NCBI GenBank assembly: GCA_946414825.1
Contig: CAMKQB010000012.1
Location: 1 to 39,390, forward strand
Length of the DNA: 39,390 bases
Reading direction: 5' to 3'
DNA from: an uncultured Lachnospiraceae bacterium
GTDB taxonomy: Bacteria > Bacillota > Clostridia > Lachnospirales > Lachnospiraceae
Part shown: one piece after another, positions 24,075 to 34,884 of the stretch
Layout: every line of letters begins with the position of its first letter
Position numbering within the stretch: position 1 is the first letter of the stretch
Notes under the pieces: model-generated
The model's input: the letters and a program-made list of their open reading frames with translations, nothing else
Databases searched by the model: none
Told to the model about the DNA's origin: nothing
Program-made: the position numbers and the translations under genes

Positions 24075-24256
24075 TAACGGATTATTCTGAAAGCTACAAA
24101 GATATAATAGATAAGCAGCGTCCGATTCATGACGGCGATGAATTCGAGGCGCGCCATCCTAAAATGTCTATCGAAAACAGGGCAAAAATATTCGCCCCAT
24201 TCGCAGCCCTGAAGGGCTACGAAGAGGCGATAGATGAAACCGCTAAGAATCACTGA
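24071..24256 (+). CDS. Small YolD-like partner of the Y-family polymerase
   Basis: The 61-residue protein contains HPKMSIENRAKIFAPFAALK, a pattern like YolD-type proteins, which often accompany UmuC-like polymerases in Firmicutes. It starts inside the end of the polymerase gene (ATGA overlap) behind an AGGAGG site at about 24057. It is translationally coupled and likely acts with the polymerase, though the mechanism is unknown. Its stop overlaps the convergent DUF2339-type gene by 7 bp. Confidence 0.8.
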   Translation: MITDYSESYKDIIDKQRPIHDGDEFEARHPKMSIENRAKIFAPFAALKGYEEAIDETAKNH

Positions 24257-26559
24257 GACATTTTCTTCTCTGCTACACTATACAGTGCACTTATTCCAAA
24301 GCACATCAGTCCGCTTAAGAAGAAGCTCAGTGCATTTCCAAGTATATTGTCATACGCTATATCAAACATAATCAGCTTGATAGCGAAGATCATCGTTGTA
24401 ACGAGTCCATATATTCTGAGACTCTTAATCTGAAGCTTAAATCCAAGCATTATGAATCCAACCGACAAAGCAAATACTGCAATACTCAGCACATAGTTTG
24501 GCGCTCCAAACGATGCCAAAATACATATAAGAAGAATTGTGAATTTAATCCCAACATATATTGATTTGTAGGCCTGTCTATCCTTCAACAGATTGTAGGA
24601 ATTAATTACAAATAGAAGTATTGCCATAAGCACAACCATAACATGCATTACATCATCATCTATAGCGAACATCAGGATTGTCGCCTCTAGCATCAGGCAT
24701 GCATTTATGACATAGGAAACTATTGTCACTGGAAGCTCTTCTTCTTTTGTGAGAACATTTTCCTTAAATGGCGTCTTTACAGAAAGGAAGTTAATTACTC
24801 CTGCCACAAGCATAAGTAGCGGCATTAATATTTCAAAGTCCCATTCAAGCTCCTCTCCCATTAATAGTACGCACATATGAAGTCCTACCATAAAGAAACA
24901 ATATGGCACCAGTTTAAAGACTATATGATACTGTCCTGCCCATTTATAAAGGAACACAAGGAACAGCGCAAATACTGCTATCACGAAGAATAACGCGATT
25001 GGATAATTGATATTGTCCCAAGTGAGTACTCTACATCCATATAAGACTATAGCAGATATTTTTGCTTGTCTCGAATCTACCAAATATCCATATACAAGTA
25101 ATGGAATAACTAAAATAGTAAGTCCAATATATTCATTAAATGTATCTAAGTTAATTATGCATAGGGAAGCTACACTAAGCAGAAGTATCTCCCAGGCTAC
25201 TAGACCTGCCCCCTTCGCAGTCGCACTTATCAGGCTATTTCTTAGCGTTAGTCTATAGTACGCCTCAATTGAAACATATATGATAACCGATATAAGTAGC
25301 GTTATAATTGCATTTGAATCTGGATCTCTAATAATGCTTGCAACTGCGACATACATATTTATTGTATGAAGCAGACAAATAAATGGAAGATATTGATAAT
25401 TCTCTTCGTTAATCATCATCACATTCAGAATAATAATTCCAATACTGAAAATTCCCATTATAGCCGAGGTAAATATTGCATCTTCGTGCATTCCTCCAGC
25501 AATTATTACCAGGACAAATGCCCCCAGCAGGGCTGAAATATTTGTAATGATAAGACTGACATTATCCTTCAGTCTGAGAAGCATAAATGCCAGAACCCCA
25601 ACTATGAAGTAAATTGCAAGTACTCCGAGAAGCATTGAATCATCTGTGTATGCACATTCTATAGCTCCAAAGAATACAGAAATGATTATTCCTGAAAGAC
25701 CTATTATTTCAAACAGCAGCTTCTTGAACTTCGATAGATAAAGAACTCCTGCCGCCCATATTATCAGCAGAATATATAAAGGTATCTGACCGATTATATG
25801 GAAATAAATATTACTTACAAATAGCGATATATATATGGCACCTATACCACAGGCTCCAATCGATAGAAACAGAACGCTTTCCTTCTGTTTGAACCATACA
25901 ACAAGTCCTACTAGAGCCATTATTCCACTTATAATGAACATCATAGCCATCTTGACTGGATCTGGAAGAACAGGCACAAAGATCATTGCAAACAGAATGA
26001 AGCTTATAAAGATAAGCACTGATGCAACTATTCCCATTACCTTGATACCAACAACAGACTCAGCATTTCCACTCTTCTTAGGAGCTGGCTGTGCACCTGG
26101 CCTTGGTCCATTTGGATTGCCCTGTGCCCAGTATCCTTGTTGAGGTTGTCCCTGCCTTGGTGGCATACCCTGAGCCTGTGCTCCTGGATGAGCCTGCATT
26201 CCAGGTTGAACCTGCGCGCCTGGTTGAACCCCCGGCTGTGGAGGCATACCTTGCTGCCCCTGTGGTGGCATTCCTGGTCGTCCCTGTGGTGGAACTCCTG
26301 GTTGGCCCTGTGGCGGCATTCCTGGTTTTCCCTGTGGTGGAACTCCTGGTTGTCCCTGTGGCGGCATACTTGGCTGTCCCTGTGGACGAAGGTTTCTGTA
26401 CGGAGACATAGCACCTTCCGGAGGTTGCTGCGCCGTTACCGGTCCTCCACCCTTGAGGTTGATGAGCTCCATCTGAATTGCATTTATCTCAAATTGAACC
26501 TCTTTTAATTTTTTCTGGCTCTCGGCCAGTCGTACCTCTAACTCACTAATTTCTGACAT
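24250..26559 (-). CDS. DUF2339-type multipass membrane protein with Pro-Gln-Gly repeats
   Basis: The 769-residue protein starts with a coiled coil (about 1-36). A Pro-rich segment follows with six tandem 8-residue units of the PQGQPGMP type (about 59-108) and further Pro/Gln/Gly-rich sequence to about 170. Some twenty hydrophobic helices come next (about 175-765), ending in a short polar tail. This layout fits the predicted membrane protein family DUF2339. No catalytic motif is visible and the function is unknown. The 3' end overlaps the convergent YolD-like gene. Confidence 0.75.
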   Translation of the reverse strand: MSEISELEVRLAESQKKLKEVQFEINAIQMELINLKGGGPVTAQQPPEGAMSPYRNLRPQGQPSMPPQGQPGVPPQGKPGMPPQGQPGVPPQGRPGMPPQGQQGMPPQPGVQPGAQVQPGMQAHPGAQAQGMPPRQGQPQQGYWAQGNPNGPRPGAQPAPKKSGNAESVVGIKVMGIVASVLIFISFILFAMIFVPVLPDPVKMAMMFIISGIMALVGLVVWFKQKESVLFLSIGACGIGAIYISLFVSNIYFHIIGQIPLYILLIIWAAGVLYLSKFKKLLFEIIGLSGIIISVFFGAIECAYTDDSMLLGVLAIYFIVGVLAFMLLRLKDNVSLIITNISALLGAFVLVIIAGGMHEDAIFTSAIMGIFSIGIIILNVMMINEENYQYLPFICLLHTINMYVAVASIIRDPDSNAIITLLISVIIYVSIEAYYRLTLRNSLISATAKGAGLVAWEILLLSVASLCIINLDTFNEYIGLTILVIPLLVYGYLVDSRQAKISAIVLYGCRVLTWDNINYPIALFFVIAVFALFLVFLYKWAGQYHIVFKLVPYCFFMVGLHMCVLLMGEELEWDFEILMPLLMLVAGVINFLSVKTPFKENVLTKEEELPVTIVSYVINACLMLEATILMFAIDDDVMHVMVVLMAILLFVINSYNLLKDRQAYKSIYVGIKFTILLICILASFGAPNYVLSIAVFALSVGFIMLGFKLQIKSLRIYGLVTTMIFAIKLIMFDIAYDNILGNALSFFLSGLMCFGISALYSVAEKKMSQ
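26233..26385 (-). repeat. In-gene tandem repeat, 24-bp unit x 6
   Basis: Six consecutive 24-bp units encode PQG(Q/K/R)PG(M/V)P variants, with near-identical DNA (TGGCATTCCTGG-like segments on the plus strand). They are likely prone to copy-number change. Confidence 0.8.
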
Positions 26560-26577
26560 ATTTTCCCCTTATGATAT

Positions 26578-26616
26578 AAAAAGCAATACAGAAGTCGACA
26601 CTCCTGTATTGCTTTT
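26578..26616 (-). terminator. Terminator after the DUF4190-type gene
   Basis: Stem AAAAGCAATACAG / CTGTATTGCTTTT with an interior of about 13 bases. It has an A-run on one side and a T-run on the other, so it can act in both directions. Confidence 0.85.
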
Positions 26617-26628
26617 ACATTTAATTAT

Positions 26629-27387
26629 TTAATAGCTTTCAGCAATACCAGCTATAATAGCCAGAACATATCCGAGTATTATCAAAATATTAATAACAAG
26701 TCCGATTATACCAACTATCCATCCAGCCTTTGCCTTATCGGTTGTATTTCCTGCATTAATAGCTGACTTACTAAGTATCATTCCTATTGGAGCTAAAATA
26801 ATACCTATCCAACAGCAACAGAATACAATAGAAAGTATAGAACATATAAGACCGCCTGTAGCTTTACCATCTTCAGGCTCTCCTAATGTACTACTTCCGT
26901 TAAAATTATAGTTACCCTGTCCATAATTTGGTGAAGCAGTTGGGTTGTATGGCTGTGTATATGGATCTGCACTTGGTGCAGGACCAGGATTTGCACTATA
27001 CATATTGCCTGTTGGCTGTGTAGGCTGTGCCGGCTGTCCATATGGATCCGAAGGCTGTCCATATGGGTCTACACTTGGTTGTGTAGGCTGCGCTGGTTGT
27101 CCGTATGGATCCGATGGCTGTCCGTATGGATCTGCACTTGGCTGTGCTGGCTGTCCATATGGGTCTGCACTTGGCTGTGCTGGCTGTCCGTATGGATCTG
27201 CACTTGGTTGTGCTGGCTGGCCATATGGATCTGATGGCTGTCCGTATGGGTCCGTAGGCTGTCCATAAGGATCTACGCTTGGCTGTGCTGGCTGTCCATA
27301 AGGATCTACGCTTGGCTGTGGTTCATTTCCAAATGATGGTCCTGTTGGGTCTCCAGCATATGGATTGTTGATCTGATTCTCGTCCAT
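26629..27387 (-). CDS. DUF4190-type membrane protein with ten DPYGQP repeats
   Basis: The 252-residue protein has a long cytosolic N-terminal part with ten copies of DPYGQP spaced by AQPS(A/V), S or T (about 27-125), then Asn/Pro-rich sequence. The C-terminal module of about 75 residues has two or three membrane helices (GLICSILSIVFCCCWIGIIL, IGMILSKSAINAG, GWIVGIIGLVINILIILGY). That module matches the DUF4190/CD225-like small membrane domain. Function unknown. It lies 25 bp after aqpZ and is probably co-transcribed. Confidence 0.78.
   Translation of the reverse strand: MDENQINNPYAGDPTGPSFGNEPQPSVDPYGQPAQPSVDPYGQPTDPYGQPSDPYGQPAQPSADPYGQPAQPSADPYGQPAQPSADPYGQPSDPYGQPAQPTQPSVDPYGQPSDPYGQPAQPTQPTGNMYSANPGPAPSADPYTQPYNPTASPNYGQGNYNFNGSSTLGEPEDGKATGGLICSILSIVFCCCWIGIILAPIGMILSKSAINAGNTTDKAKAGWIVGIIGLVINILIILGYVLAIIAGIAESY
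27010..27312 (-). repeat. In-gene tandem repeats, 33-bp and 21-bp units
   Basis: Ten DPYGQP-encoding units, in 33-bp (DPYGQPAQPSA), 21-bp (DPYGQPS) and longer forms. The plus strand reads as repeated GGCTGTCCATATGGATC-like sequence. The units are coding and lack CRISPR spacers. Confidence 0.8.
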
Positions 27388-28587: not shown

Positions 28588-30389
<1,802 letters not shown>

Positions 30390-31292
30390 TTAAGCCTCCT
30401 CTTTAATACGTTTTTTCTTCTGAGCACGAGCTCCTGCAGCTACCTCGGTTATTTCTTGAGTGATAGCCGCCTGTCTTACTCTGTTATACTCAATTCTTAG
30501 TTCATCTAGAAGTGCTTCTGCATTTTTATTAGCCGAATTCATAGCTGTCATACGTGCATTCTGTTCAGCAGAGAAGCTGTCTACGAGTGCACCATATATA
30601 CATCCAGCTACATATCCCGGAATAACATGATTAAGTACTTCATCCACGGAAGGAGAGAATTCATAATGAACATCCTTCAGATCTCTCTCATCCTTTTTAG
30701 TCCAAAATTCCTTTCGATCAAAAGGAAGAAGTCTCATCATCTTAACTGTAGTCAGGAACTCACTTTCCATATCACTATAGATAACTCTTATCTCATCTAT
30801 ACGTTTACTATCGTATTCTTCAAGAAGTATCGAGCTTATCTCTCTAGCCCTGGAAAAAGTAGGATTCTGTGCGGTATAGAGAAAGGTCTGTTCCATACCA
30901 TAGTCCTTCTTCTTAAAATAACGACGTCCGTAGTCACCTACTACATATAACTTAACCTTCTTATGCTTCGCCATTTCCTGTTCTGCAAGCTTAATAACAT
31001 TATGGTTATATGCGCCGGCTAGTCCCTTATCAGCAGTAATCACCAGATATGCATATGTCTCTGCCGGCTTTCGTCCTGTTTTAGGATAAAAATATCGGCT
31101 CGTGATATCTATCTCAGTCTGGAAAATACGACGAATCTCATTTTCCTGCATTTCAAAATAAGGTCTGGTCTTGTCCAGTTCTTCCTTTGCCTTCCTCATC
31201 TTTGTAGAGGAAATGAGATACATAGCATTAGTGATTTTCTGAGTATTCTGAACACTTCCTATTCTATTTTTTATCTCTTTAGTATTTGGCAT
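30390..31292 (-). CDS. atpG: ATP synthase F1 subunit gamma
   Basis: The 300-residue rotor shaft starts with the N-terminal helix MPNTKEIKNRIGSVQNTQKIT and ends with the C-terminal helix containing RMTAMNSANKNAEALLDEL and ARAQKKKRIKEEA. ITADKGLAGAYN matches the conserved ITSDRGLCGGYN-type motif. The length is normal. It lies 17 bp after atpA. Confidence 0.96.
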   Translation of the reverse strand: MPNTKEIKNRIGSVQNTQKITNAMYLISSTKMRKAKEELDKTRPYFEMQENEIRRIFQTEIDITSRYFYPKTGRKPAETYAYLVITADKGLAGAYNHNVIKLAEQEMAKHKKVKLYVVGDYGRRYFKKKDYGMEQTFLYTAQNPTFSRAREISSILLEEYDSKRIDEIRVIYSDMESEFLTTVKMMRLLPFDRKEFWTKKDERDLKDVHYEFSPSVDEVLNHVIPGYVAGCIYGALVDSFSAEQNARMTAMNSANKNAEALLDELRIEYNRVRQAAITQEITEVAAGARAQKKKRIKEEA

Positions 31293-31309: not shown

Positions 31310-33067
31310 TTATTTATTGTTTATATATGAATCACGGAATTTATTTGCTGCGTCAATTATCATCTGCTTATCATCATCAGATAGCTGTCCTGTAGAATCA
31401 ATCTGCTTGCAGAGAGCATCCTCTTCCTCATGGAAATATGCAAGAAGCTTTGTTCTAAAATCTGCTATATCGTCAGGATGAATCTCCTGCATAACATGTG
31501 CAGTTGCTGATACAAGAATAATAACCTGTTCATGCAGTTTAAATGGATGGTTCTGAGGCTGTCTCAGCAAATACATAAGTCCTTGTCCATATTGCAACTG
31601 TTTCTTTGTTGTTTCATCCAGATCACTGGAGAACTGTGTGAATATTTCCATCTCACGATACTGTGCCAGATCTAGACGGAGGCTACCCGCAGCCTTCTTC
31701 ATAGCCTTGGTCTGTGCAGCACCACCAACACGGGATACCGAAAGTCCAACATTTACCGCTGGTCTCTGTCCAGCAAAGAACAGATCACTTTCTAGGAATA
31801 TCTGACCATCCGTGATGGAAATGATATTTGTTGGAATATAAGCGGATACATCGCCCGCCTGTGTTTCAACTATTGGTAGAGCTGTAATACTTCCTCCCCC
31901 TAGTTCCTCTGAAAGATGCGCAGATCTCTCAAGAAGTCTTGAATGAAGATAGAATACATCTCCTGGGTATGCCTCACGTCCTGGAGATCTTTCAAGAAGA
32001 AGCGAAAGTGCTCTATACGCTATAGCATGCTTTGACAGGTCATCATATATGATAAGTACATCCTTACCCTTATACATGAAATACTCTGCCAGGGATGTCC
32101 CTGAATATGGTGCTATATACTGAATAGGCGCTGTTTCAGAGGCATTTGCTGCAACTACTATTGTATAGTCCATAGCGTTCTGCTTCTTAAGTGTTCCAAC
32201 AAGCTGTGCAACACTACTTGCCTTCTGTCCTATAGCAACATATATACATATAACATCGTTATCCTTTTGATTTAGTATTGTATCCAGGGCGATAGCAGTT
32301 TTACCTGTCTGTCTATCACCGATAATAAGCTCACGCTGACCTCTACCTATTGGGAACATGGAATCTATAGATAAGATTCCTGTATTCATAGGGGTATCAA
32401 CGGATTGTCTGTCTATAATACCAGGAGCAGCCTCTTCAACTGCTCTATATCCTTCCGCCTCTATTGGTCCCTCTCCGTCGATTGGATTGCCTAGAGGATC
32501 TACTACACGTCCTAGAAATTCGTCACCTACAGGAATACCTGCGGTTTTACCGGTTCTCATAACTCGGCTTCCCTCAGTAACATCTGTGTCATCACCAAAC
32601 AGAATGACACCAATATCGTCAGGTCTTAGCTCCTGTACCATTCCTCTAACGCCGGATTCGAAAATAACTATCTCTCCGTACATAGCAGACTTGAGTCCAT
32701 CTACGAAAACTATACCATCACCCACAGTCTCAACATGTCCCTCTTCTTCAGCGATAACATGTGGTTCCCAGTCGTTAATGCTACTTTTCATAAGAGATAT
32801 AAGCTCATTTCCCGAGGTTACCTTCTCCTCGCGAAGTGATCTAAGCATCTCTTCGAGCTGGTGCAGTCTTCCTGTGTTGGTCCAGTCATATACTTCCTCA
32901 CCAACTACAAGCTTAAAACCAGTTCCAAGCGTTTCGTCCTTTTCCCACTCAAGCTCTATTCCTTCGCCATATCTTTCTGCTATAAAGCTGGCAAACTTGG
33001 CTTTCTGAGATTCGTCAGGTTCCGAAAGGGCATATAAATGAGCGCGGATTTTCTTCTCTTCTGCCAC
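31310..33067 (-). CDS. atpA: ATP synthase F1 subunit alpha with N-terminal delta-subunit C-terminal domain (delta-alpha fusion)
   Basis: The 585-residue protein is about 82 residues longer than the usual 500-505. From about 83 on it is a standard alpha subunit: [24 protein letters not shown]-loop GDRQTGKT, the [19 protein letters not shown] region and [15 protein letters not shown]. Residues 1-78 match the C-terminal domain of subunit delta (AtpH). [19 protein letters not shown] helix is followed by strand [20 protein letters not shown] and the closing [17 protein letters not shown], equivalent to VIDGSVRGRLERLADVL in E. coli delta. No atpH gene exists in the operon. The GTG start directly follows the atpF TAA and has AAAGGAG ten bases upstream, so the extension is really translated. 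The delta N-terminal six-helix domain is absent. Confidence 0.95.
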
Positions 33068-33550
33068 TTAACTACCGCTCCTTTCAGCATTCTTAAGAAA
33101 CATATCATATGCCTCACTAGTGTTTCCTGATAGTACAACCTTACGAGTTGCTTCCTCTACCATCTCAGTAATATCCTTCTTAGCAGACTCGATAATAGCC
33201 TGTTTCTGATTTTCGGCATCCTTCTTAGCCTTATCAATTATCTTGTTGGCAGATTCTTTTGCTTCTGCCTCAGCGTTTGATCTCATTGTAGCTATATCAA
33301 GGGAAGCCTTTCTCTTCTGCTGTGATATCTCACCCTCCAGCTCCTTCAGTCTGTCCTCAGCTTCAGCATTCTTTTCCTCTGCTTCAGCGAGTGCTGCCTG
33401 AGCCTGCTCGTCAAGTTCTTTGTAATGATTTTCTCTGTCCTGCATTATTTTCTTAACAGGAGCATATATGATAACGTACAGACCACCAAAAAGTAATACG
33501 ACATTGAACATATGCAGTAAAATCTGTGTTAAATCTATTCCTAATGGCAT
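33068..33550 (-). CDS. atpF: ATP synthase F0 subunit b
   Basis: The 160-residue protein has one N-terminal membrane helix (about 8-28) and a long charged coiled coil (about 35-140), then a short tail. This is the normal b subunit of the peripheral stalk. Its C-terminal tail is the partner of the delta C-terminal domain, which in this operon is on alpha. It is not fused to delta itself. The stop codon abuts the atpA GTG start. Confidence 0.95.
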   Translation of the reverse strand: MPLGIDLTQILLHMFNVVLLFGGLYVIIYAPVKKIMQDRENHYKELDEQAQAALAEAEEKNAEAEDRLKELEGEISQQKRKASLDIATMRSNAEAEAKESANKIIDKAKKDAENQKQAIIESAKKDITEMVEEATRKVVLSGNTSEAYDMFLKNAERSGS

Positions 33551-33609: not shown

Positions 33610-33981
33610 TTATAAGACGAATATAATCAGAATCGATACAACCAGCGCATACAGAACAGCTGTCTCTATGAATACGATACCAAGGATCATTGTAGTTCTG
33701 ATCTTACCCTCAGCTTCTGGCTGACGAGCGATTCCTTCAGCAGCCTTACCAACGCAGAGACCCATACCTAATGTACCAAGACCTGCTGCAATACCAATTG
33801 AGATAGCTGCTGCAATAGCCTTACCTGCTGTTGAACCATCCTCTGCTTCTTCTGTCTCTTCAACGGCTGTGGTTTCTTCATCTGCTGCATATGATATTGA
33901 TGCAGGATTAACCGCTGAGAATACTCCAAATGCTACAAATAATAATAAAATTGTTATTAATGCTTTCTTCATTAGTTTCAT
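33610..33981 (-). CDS. atpE: ATP synthase F0 subunit c with signal peptide and acidic leader
   Basis: The 123-residue protein is longer than the usual 70-90. Residues 1-32 form a signal peptide (MKLMKKALITILLLFVAFG, with a likely cleavage after SYA). Residues 33-50 are highly acidic, and about 51-123 make the two-helix c subunit. The loop is ARQPEAEGKIR and the ion-carrying carboxylate is E106 in FIETAVLYALV. The Gln found in helix 1 of Na+-type c rings is Met here (M73), so H+ is the more likely ion. The N-terminus of c faces outside, so a cleaved signal peptide is topologically sensible. Confidence 0.94.
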   Translation of the reverse strand: MKLMKKALITILLLFVAFGVFSAVNPASISYAADEETTAVEETEEAEDGSTAGKAIAAAISIGIAAGLGTLGMGLCVGKAAEGIARQPEAEGKIRTTMILGIVFIETAVLYALVVSILIIFVL

Positions 33982-34032: not shown

Positions 34033-34884
34033 TTATGCTTCTACTGCAACTTCAGTTTTCTTCTCTTTCTTTTTCTTTGGCTTCTTCTCATGCACCTCTG
34101 ACACCTCGCCATAGTATATGGATGTCAGCATCGTAAGAACGTAAGCCTGTACTACTGCATGTATCAGCGTAAAGAGAACACCAACCAGTACTGGAAGCAC
34201 AAAGCTGAGCATAATTGTGTAATAAACCAACTCCGTAACAAGCGCTCCGGATAGGAGTGCACAGAATAGACGGAAGCTCATGGATATCGGAAGAGAAAAC
34301 TCCTTTAATGTAAGTCCGATTCCCTTTAATTTATTCTTCCTGATACCACCCGACATGATAAAGCCATATGAGAATACACCCATTGCTATCGCTCCATTAA
34401 TGTCGCAAAGCGGTGCTGGAAGTGCCATTGGATTACCAGCGGTAGTCATCCACTGTATACCAAAAAGCTCAAATATAGTTCCCACGAAGATATATGATCC
34501 TGCCGCAAATATGTATGCGCCAAGAGCACCATTCAAATGTGGACTGTTCGTTTTAGCCAGATTATCAAAATATCCTACCCAGGTCTCAATAACTATCTGG
34601 AACTTACCAGGAACAGTTTTGAAACGAGGTATGGCGAAGATCCTGATCATAAGTGCAATAAACAGAAGTATTGCTGAGACCAGATAACCCGCTATAAGCG
34701 AAGGATTAACCGTAAGTCCAAAGAAGTTCATTTTGTTCTCTTCATGGATAACGGCATCTCGCATCACGGTCTTGATAGATTCGTGATTTCCGCCTCCCTT
34801 ATATGTGATGAAAATACTGACCAGGAGCAGTACCAGAACTATAGCAGTTACTACAAGAAATCTGGTTCTTTTTCCTTTGTCCAA
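34033..34884 (-). CDS. atpB: ATP synthase F0 subunit a
   Basis: The 283-residue membrane protein has about six helices and a Lys-rich C-terminal tail (KKPKKKKEKKTE). The essential stator Arg is R205 in SMSFRLFCALLSG. The usual pattern after this Arg is RLFGN with a Glu nine residues on; here these positions are Ala209 and Ala214, with Glu218 four residues later. Gln246 is kept, and a His (H242) lies four residues before it. The start is TTG, preceded by AAAGGAG. It is the first gene of the operon; no atpI is present. Confidence 0.94.
   Translation of the reverse strand: MDKGKRTRFLVVTAIVLVLLLVSIFITYKGGGNHESIKTVMRDAVIHEENKMNFFGLTVNPSLIAGYLVSAILLFIALMIRIFAIPRFKTVPGKFQIVIETWVGYFDNLAKTNSPHLNGALGAYIFAAGSYIFVGTIFELFGIQWMTTAGNPMALPAPLCDINGAIAMGVFSYGFIMSGGIRKNKLKGIGLTLKEFSLPISMSFRLFCALLSGALVTELVYYTIMLSFVLPVLVGVLFTLIHAVVQAYVLTMLTSIYYGEVSEVHEKKPKKKKEKKTEVAVEA

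Follow-up and report, generated by a model that had tools for sequence, protein, structure and literature searches.

The window, a stretch of 39,390 nucleotides from an uncultured Lachnospiraceae bacterium, encodes an F-type ATP synthase whose alpha subunit carries the C-terminal domain of delta (hereafter dC) at its N-terminus. The operon runs a-c-b-(dC-alpha)-gamma-beta-epsilon, entirely on the minus strand, and its open reading frames (ORFs) and a Pfam scan reveal no separate delta gene, which bears out the a-c-b-alpha-gamma-beta-epsilon order without atpH described in an earlier note on this DNA. The anatomy is observed, while the number of stalks is inferred; we put at roughly 0.55 the probability that this natural dC-alpha F-ATPase can hold several stalks rather than one. 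The same layout was engineered by Ueno et al. (2025, PMC12229609), who removed delta residues 2-104 in Bacillus PS3 FoF1 and fused the remainder to alpha (PDB 9jc1).

The extra N-terminal residues of alpha, about 82 in number, had been read in the earlier note as the delta C-terminal domain, and the profile evidence agrees. Scanned alone, the extension matches PF00213 positions 98-172 over residues 2-75 with 33.2 bits (E = 6.7e-8; curated cut-off 22.3 bits); within the whole alpha protein the match scores 28.2 bits. The NCBIfam delta models also match the extension, under their whole-protein cut-offs, and the delta domain shows a weak match to the end of TIGR03321 (N-ATPase b, E = 0.004). No PF00213 match to the delta N-terminal half is found in the window alpha. 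At the genome level the reported range widens to 31-172, with 98-172 as the reliable part, because that search does not halt at the stop of atpF and takes in the end of b, which is helical. A single-sequence search of the PDB with the extension gives weak matches, the best being a b-delta chain (E = 0.0064). Profile and fold searches return clear matches to delta/OSCP C-terminal domains, the fold matches covering the structural correspondence proposed for residues 1-82. The engineered 9jc1 chain is the best profile match and shares top place by fold, and its alignment crosses the junction into alpha. These matches confirm that the window holds a delta C-terminal domain fused to the alpha N-terminus.

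The start of the fused gene is as the earlier note described. A GTG (33065-33067) directly follows the atpF stop TAA (33068-33070), and AAAGGAG (33078-33084) lies ten bases upstream. All of the 11 sequences compared, from the window and 10 other members of its genus (two of which are almost identical), have this GTG with the AAAGGAG ahead of it. In this set the median ratio of nonsynonymous to synonymous substitution rates (dN/dS) is 0.12 for residues 1-78 (30 pairs with dS < 2.5, of 35 computable), and again 0.12 for residues 79-107 (25 of 28 pairs); in the alpha core it is 0.037 (55 of 55 pairs). By these ratios, the extension is under purifying selection.

Two ways in which the cell might depart from a uniform dC-alpha product were considered. 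A mixed population, with one dC-alpha and two plain alpha subunits made through an internal start or proteolysis, would bring back the normal subunit ratio with its one stalk, and an in-frame Met at residue 93 is common to 11 of 11 genus sequences. We nevertheless consider this improbable. Across fusion loci (some genomes counted twice), a ribosome-binding-like sequence accompanies 14 of 153 in-frame starts near the native alpha start versus 195 of 3092 elsewhere in the gene; such sequences are not enriched there, no start-codon position near the native start is widely common, and an internal start yielding plain alpha is unsupported. Stop-codon read-through from b into alpha was also rejected as a conserved device. 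The window atpF and atpA share a frame with one TAA between them; among 90 loci, however, alpha lies in frame 0 with respect to b in 5, in frame 1 in 9 and in frame 2 in 76, and it is because of this variation that read-through does not qualify.

The window genome assembly (2.05 Mb, 100 contigs, 91.6% complete) yields no second PF00213 match at E 0.001 or at E 0.1. Its only match to the F-type a subunit (PF00119) is atpB, and its five PF00006 matches are the window alpha and beta, those on contigs C50 and C55 (V/A-type) and one on C36. C50 and C55 are short contigs on which this genome (G000) also has V/A-type ATPase genes (L004, L003). A PF00213 survey of 61 genomes of the genus, window included and counted by hand, places the finding in context. 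In 57 genomes there is a match that starts no earlier than profile position 28 and lies in a frame of 252-763 codons; 11 of these were read at the sequence level, and the others are taken as fusions from frame and profile range. A full-length delta (frame 178-188 codons) is present in 23. The genus divides into 35 genomes with the fusion type only, 22 with both, one with full-length delta only and three with neither. Eighteen of the 35 fusion-only genomes are at least 90% complete, and one of the 35 (G794) is a single contig at 99%. Subunit a occurs once in each of the nine fusion-only genomes tested, the window's among them, and twice in G160, which has both delta types. The dC-only fusion is the sole F-ATPase found in many species of the genus.

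These counts bear on the idea that a separate delta was missed in an incomplete genome and that the extension is a remnant. The 91.6% completeness and the canonical delta in 23 of 61 genus genomes lend it something, but 34 further genomes have the fusion-type match only (17 of them at least 90% complete), eight of those 34 were tested for subunit a and have one each, and the extension is under purifying selection; we judge it very unlikely. Another atpH, which would have told against the earlier note, was found neither in the window genome nor in the 34 relatives, though the genus does include genomes with a canonical delta.

Fusions of delta to alpha are widespread rather than unique to the window. 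Using a model of the dC-alpha junction (A1), and counting by hand those stop-free matches that begin at or before model position 10 and end at or beyond 138, we found such fusions in 77 or more of the 397 genomes searched in the family. Among those 77, 47 frames have 576-647 codons, 27 have 669-758 (room for a whole delta), one has 787, and two (192 and 270) are cut by contig ends. A search of 391 genomes of the class, part of them from Lachnospiraceae, added 23 genomes outside the family with a stop-free junction match, in 13 families; six of the 23, all in one family, have 679-codon frames. A scan of named genomes confirmed 80 of 148 loci as fusions, including those of Pseudobutyrivibrio ruminis DSM 9787, P. 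xylanivorans DSM 14809, Butyrivibrio fibrisolvens 16/4, 'Lactobacillus rogosae' ATCC 27753, Eubacterium uniforme ATCC 35992 and Agathobacter ruminis JK623. The a-c-b-alpha-gamma-beta-epsilon order recurs at all relatives' loci with a long enough stretch (delta was not among the queries), and b runs directly into alpha at fusion loci. In 15 of 15 named genomes tested, PF00213 gives two matches. One is a canonical delta (frame 180-190); the other lies in a delta-alpha frame of 671-758 codons and extends from profile positions 5-23 to 171-172. In these genomes the fusion therefore belongs to a second F-ATPase, one in which the N-terminal domain of delta is still present. Named isolates with a whole-delta-alpha fusion beside a canonical delta include, among others, L110, L112, L120, L130, L138, L144 and L152. 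The C-terminus of the E. uniforme fusion (L138:5704-7977) is extended by a long tail, about 75 residues in length and highly charged.

Other arrangements of the same parts were also encountered. In G068, the single genome of its genus examined, b, dC and alpha form one 787-codon frame (L052:3629-5989; PF00430, PF00213, PF00006), and no other PF00430 match is found in this 96% complete genome. G065 has a b-dC fusion (PF00430, PF00213 96-172) with a plain alpha, and no delta N-terminal domain was found. G071 combines dC-alpha with a second b of 324 residues (L056:4468-5439) that by eye contains two dC-like repeats, which PF00213 does not call at E 0.001. Weak PF00213 matches below the cut-off also occur in G065 (contig C21, E = 0.06) and G079 (contig C7, E = 0.08). 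The earlier note had proposed that a covalent link replaces the grip of the delta N-terminal domain on alpha. This may be so, and it fits the window, but it is not the whole story, because G065 has neither a detected N-terminal domain nor a link to alpha; the whole-delta-alpha fusions, for their part, keep the N-terminal domain.

How could such an enzyme work? In ordinary enzymes a single delta N-terminal domain sits on the threefold axis atop F1 and is held to restrict the complex to one stalk; Ueno et al. argue in these terms, speaking of a pseudo-threefold axis (PMC12229609). In the window enzyme that domain is gone and the C-terminal domain is joined to the alpha N-terminus, and since each alpha carries dC, each of the three would have a b2-stalk socket to itself. 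As many as three such stalks could then dock, each bringing an a subunit, with the likely payoff that more ions would be moved per ATP and that ATP could be made at low proton-motive force. In the engineered enzyme as many as three b2 stalks were indeed found, every one accompanied by an a subunit. By gel this enzyme contains 2.2 times as much a and 1.8 times as much b as the wild type, its H+/ATP ratio is 5.8 versus 3.0, and its three sites are reported as nearly identical (PMC12229609). Since the engineers' version of this layout gave up to three stalks, nature may already use multi-stalk ATP synthases, and by analogy we infer that the natural enzyme would assemble more than one stalk with a higher ion/ATP ratio. 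The stoichiometry puzzle raised in the earlier note, three stalk-binding domains for one b dimer, has in this sense an answer demonstrated in the engineered enzyme, one that may hold for the natural enzyme as well.

Several observations weigh against a multi-stalk natural enzyme. The evidence for multiple stalks belongs to the engineered protein, the natural one being known from sequence. Even in the engineered enzyme, electron microscopy (EM) sorted particles with zero, one, two and three stalks into classes of 15, 51, 26 and 8%, so that 66% have none or one and the mean is 1.26; the authors ascribe the low count to loss on the grid (PMC12229609). The sole b found in G068 is fused 1:1 to alpha, an arrangement that does not supply six b per enzyme. 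A single-sequence search reaches 9jc1 only at E 0.26. Finally, the N-terminal domain of the whole-delta-alpha fusions decays no faster than that of canonical deltas, though three copies would compete for one axial site.

A rival reading is an enzyme with one stalk and two idle sockets, in which one dC alone binds b2, the other two cap the top of F1, and the fusion is neutral or an assembly-stabilising replacement of the delta-alpha grip. The EM proportions of one-stalk and stalkless particles suit this arrangement, as do the whole-delta-alpha fusions: they retain the very domain held to limit stalk number, and fusion alone need therefore not mean several stalks. The gels and the H+/ATP ratio of the engineered enzyme point instead to stalks and a subunits numbering about two each, at three nearly identical sites (PMC12229609), and the window is without the N-terminal domain held to impose a single stalk. 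We regard the one-stalk arrangement as possible but doubtful, and favor a capacity for more than one stalk.

A quick tree of 80 alpha rows, chosen from 202 alphas, gives some indication of how the fusions arose. One branch (Shimodaira-Hasegawa-like approximate likelihood ratio test, SH-aLRT, 99) separates 58 rows, nearly all fusions, from 22 among which are the canonical alphas of Lachnospiraceae. Within the 58, whole-delta forms alternate with dC-only ones, and the window falls in a dC-only group of 19 rows and 10 family codes (support 82). The canonical side also contains four dC-alpha loci (L056, L199, L200, L209) and the b-dC locus L053, while L085, an unfused delta plus alpha labelled canonical, is placed inside the fusion clade. 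The branches of L053, L056, L062 and L095 are long, and L185 and L208 are the same locus. Constraining all fusions to one clade is rejected (approximately unbiased, AU, test, p = 0.0001; 61 rows versus 19), as is a single clade of the main-clade dC-only forms (p = 0.0007; 37 versus 43), a group that was named after the tree was seen and that leaves out L056, L199, L200 and L209. The fusion therefore probably arose more than once, and the delta N-terminal domain was probably lost more than once, with the details unsure owing to the long branches.

Relaxed selection on the N-terminal domain of whole-delta-alpha fusions was expected, and the comparison with canonical deltas shows none. At alpha identities of 0.85-0.90, N-terminal domain identity is 0.434 among fusions (1288 pairs, 68 sequences) versus 0.352 among canonical deltas (580 pairs, 47 sequences), and C-terminal domain identity is 0.586 versus 0.514. 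The domain is shorter in the fusions, with a median of 93 aligned residues versus 103.

A wider proposition can be put forward: that Clostridia commonly have natural F-ATP synthases with several stalks, and that these are the sole F-type enzyme in many species of the genus, with up to three b2 and three a per c-ring and a raised ion/ATP ratio, and that the delta N-terminal domain is an evolutionary switch of stalk number, lost repeatedly after fusion. We advance this tentatively, at a little less than even odds. As the F-ATPases known so far contain a single a subunit, c-ring size is assumed to set the H+/ATP ratio. If the proposition is true, the rule of one stalk and one a would be broken in F-type enzymes, and the ion/ATP ratio would suit anaerobes living at low proton-motive force. 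The engineered enzyme broke the one-a rule, and its authors guessed at natural cases from three sequences (PMC12229609). The present survey finds the same architecture in many Clostridia, partly as the cell's only F-ATPase, and with it a range of arrangements (whole delta-alpha, dC-alpha, b-dC, b-dC-alpha). The question of natural multi-stalk enzymes therefore becomes directly testable, with cultured whole-delta relatives as the comparison.

Features of the ATP synthase operon in the window, with the evidence for each assignment
Feature	Position	Strand	Basis
atpA, delta C-terminal domain + F1 alpha, 585 aa, GTG start	31310..33067	-	ORF; PF00213, PF02874, PF00006, PF00306
Delta (OSCP) C-terminal domain, residues 2-75 of atpA	32843..33064	-	PF00213 98-172; Foldseek and VIA-align matches to delta/OSCP and 9jc1
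Alpha N-terminal helix region, retained, residues ~85-101	32765..32815	-	Profile alignment across junction with 9jc1 chain I; predicted helix 86-98, low confidence
AAAGGAG, ribosome-binding-like, for atpA; within atpF 3' end	33078..33084	-	Sequence; 11/11 compared
atpF, subunit b, 160 aa, separate gene, stop TAA	33068..33550	-	PF00430, 46.6 bits
atpE, subunit c, signal-peptide-like acidic N-terminal extension	33610..33981	-	PF00137 at residues 56-119 of 123; extension from sequence
atpB, subunit a	34033..34884	-	PF00119
atpG, gamma	30390..31292	-	PF00231
atpD, beta	28995..30383	-	PF00006, PF02874
atpC, epsilon, both domains	28588..28998	-	PF02823, PF00401

The signal-peptide-like N-terminus of subunit c is shared by the window with L054, L059, L062, L063, L192, L194, L203, L205 and L207, in most of which an acidic linker lies ahead of the hairpin; the c subunits of L130, L110, L138, L144, L198 and L200 are without it. 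The window c has the Glu-Thr-x-x-x-Tyr pattern, but Met at the position at which sodium-type c subunits have Gln. Elsewhere in the window, two genes at 24250-27387 encode products with Pro/Gln-rich repeats near the N-terminus (MPPQGQPG-like, DPYGQP-like) followed by hydrophobic stretches.

A separate observation concerns gamma, a rotor subunit, and beta, a stator subunit, which occupy one open frame of 767-802 codons at L053:4814-7114 (G065), L195:6564-8954 (G536) and L196:6591-8996 (G661), with PF00231 and PF00006 both called. These are 3 of 108 beta frames scanned at the loci retrieved, duplicates included. The Met at the beta start is kept in all three, preceded by AAGGAGG (G065) or a weaker AAGGA-like sequence, so beta could also start alone; gamma is without a stop of its own. 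In E. coli, rotation is reported to have continued when the C-terminus of gamma was cross-linked to the stator. A gamma-beta query of the class matched itself and G536 only, the latter via its beta part, and therefore says little about the frequency of this fusion.

Among known systems, the N-ATPases are comparable in having no separate delta gene, delta being absent or fused with b (ProAD 2025, PMC11738941). Their operon, as described in ProAD, opens with beta-epsilon followed by two additional genes (beta-epsilon-X-X-a-c-(b delta)-alpha-gamma), which is not the order of the window operon. The window alpha is of the F-type (TIGR00962 atpA, 747 bits, cut-off 484.45) and falls under the cut-off for N-type alpha (TIGR03324, 616.3 bits versus 750.5). 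In the Chloroflexus aurantiacus ATP synthase (PDB 9itj and five further entries), 12 delta chains occur in 6 entries, two per entry on average. The mycobacterial b-delta protein (PDB 7jg5) likewise makes delta part of another stator subunit, and its C-terminal domain matches that of the window; there delta and its partner b form one polypeptide, whereas here b ends at its own TAA (33068-33070) and the delta domain is in the next gene, joined to alpha. The mycobacterial fusion also keeps the delta N-terminal domain. The whole-delta-alpha fusions of Pseudobutyrivibrio, Lachnospira, Agathobacter and others share the operon order and the delta-to-alpha junction with the window, but differ in retaining the N-terminal domain (PF00213 11-171 in L130) and in the canonical delta encoded elsewhere.

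The earlier note knew of no characterised delta-alpha fusion, a statement overtaken in 2025 by the solved engineered version and the natural cases noted with it. By that paper's account, Acidaminococcus fermentans and the UniProt entries G4Q3K6 and A0A1I2C5T3 have delta-alpha fusions without the delta N-terminal domain, and multi-stalk enzymes are suggested there (PMC12229609). A. fermentans belongs to the Negativicutes, whereas the relatives of the window belong to Lachnospiraceae and other Clostridia. A literature search outside most subscription journals found no other papers on delta-alpha fusion, and none on Clostridia. The engineered PS3 FoF1 differs from the window enzyme in being man-made, in having lost the epsilon C-terminal domain, which the window keeps (PF00401), and in having had its stalks counted, the window enzyme being known here from its genes. 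The two nonetheless agree in the order of delta C-terminal domain, short linker and alpha N-terminal helix and in the lack of a delta N-terminal domain and of a separate delta, and they align across the junction by both profile and fold.
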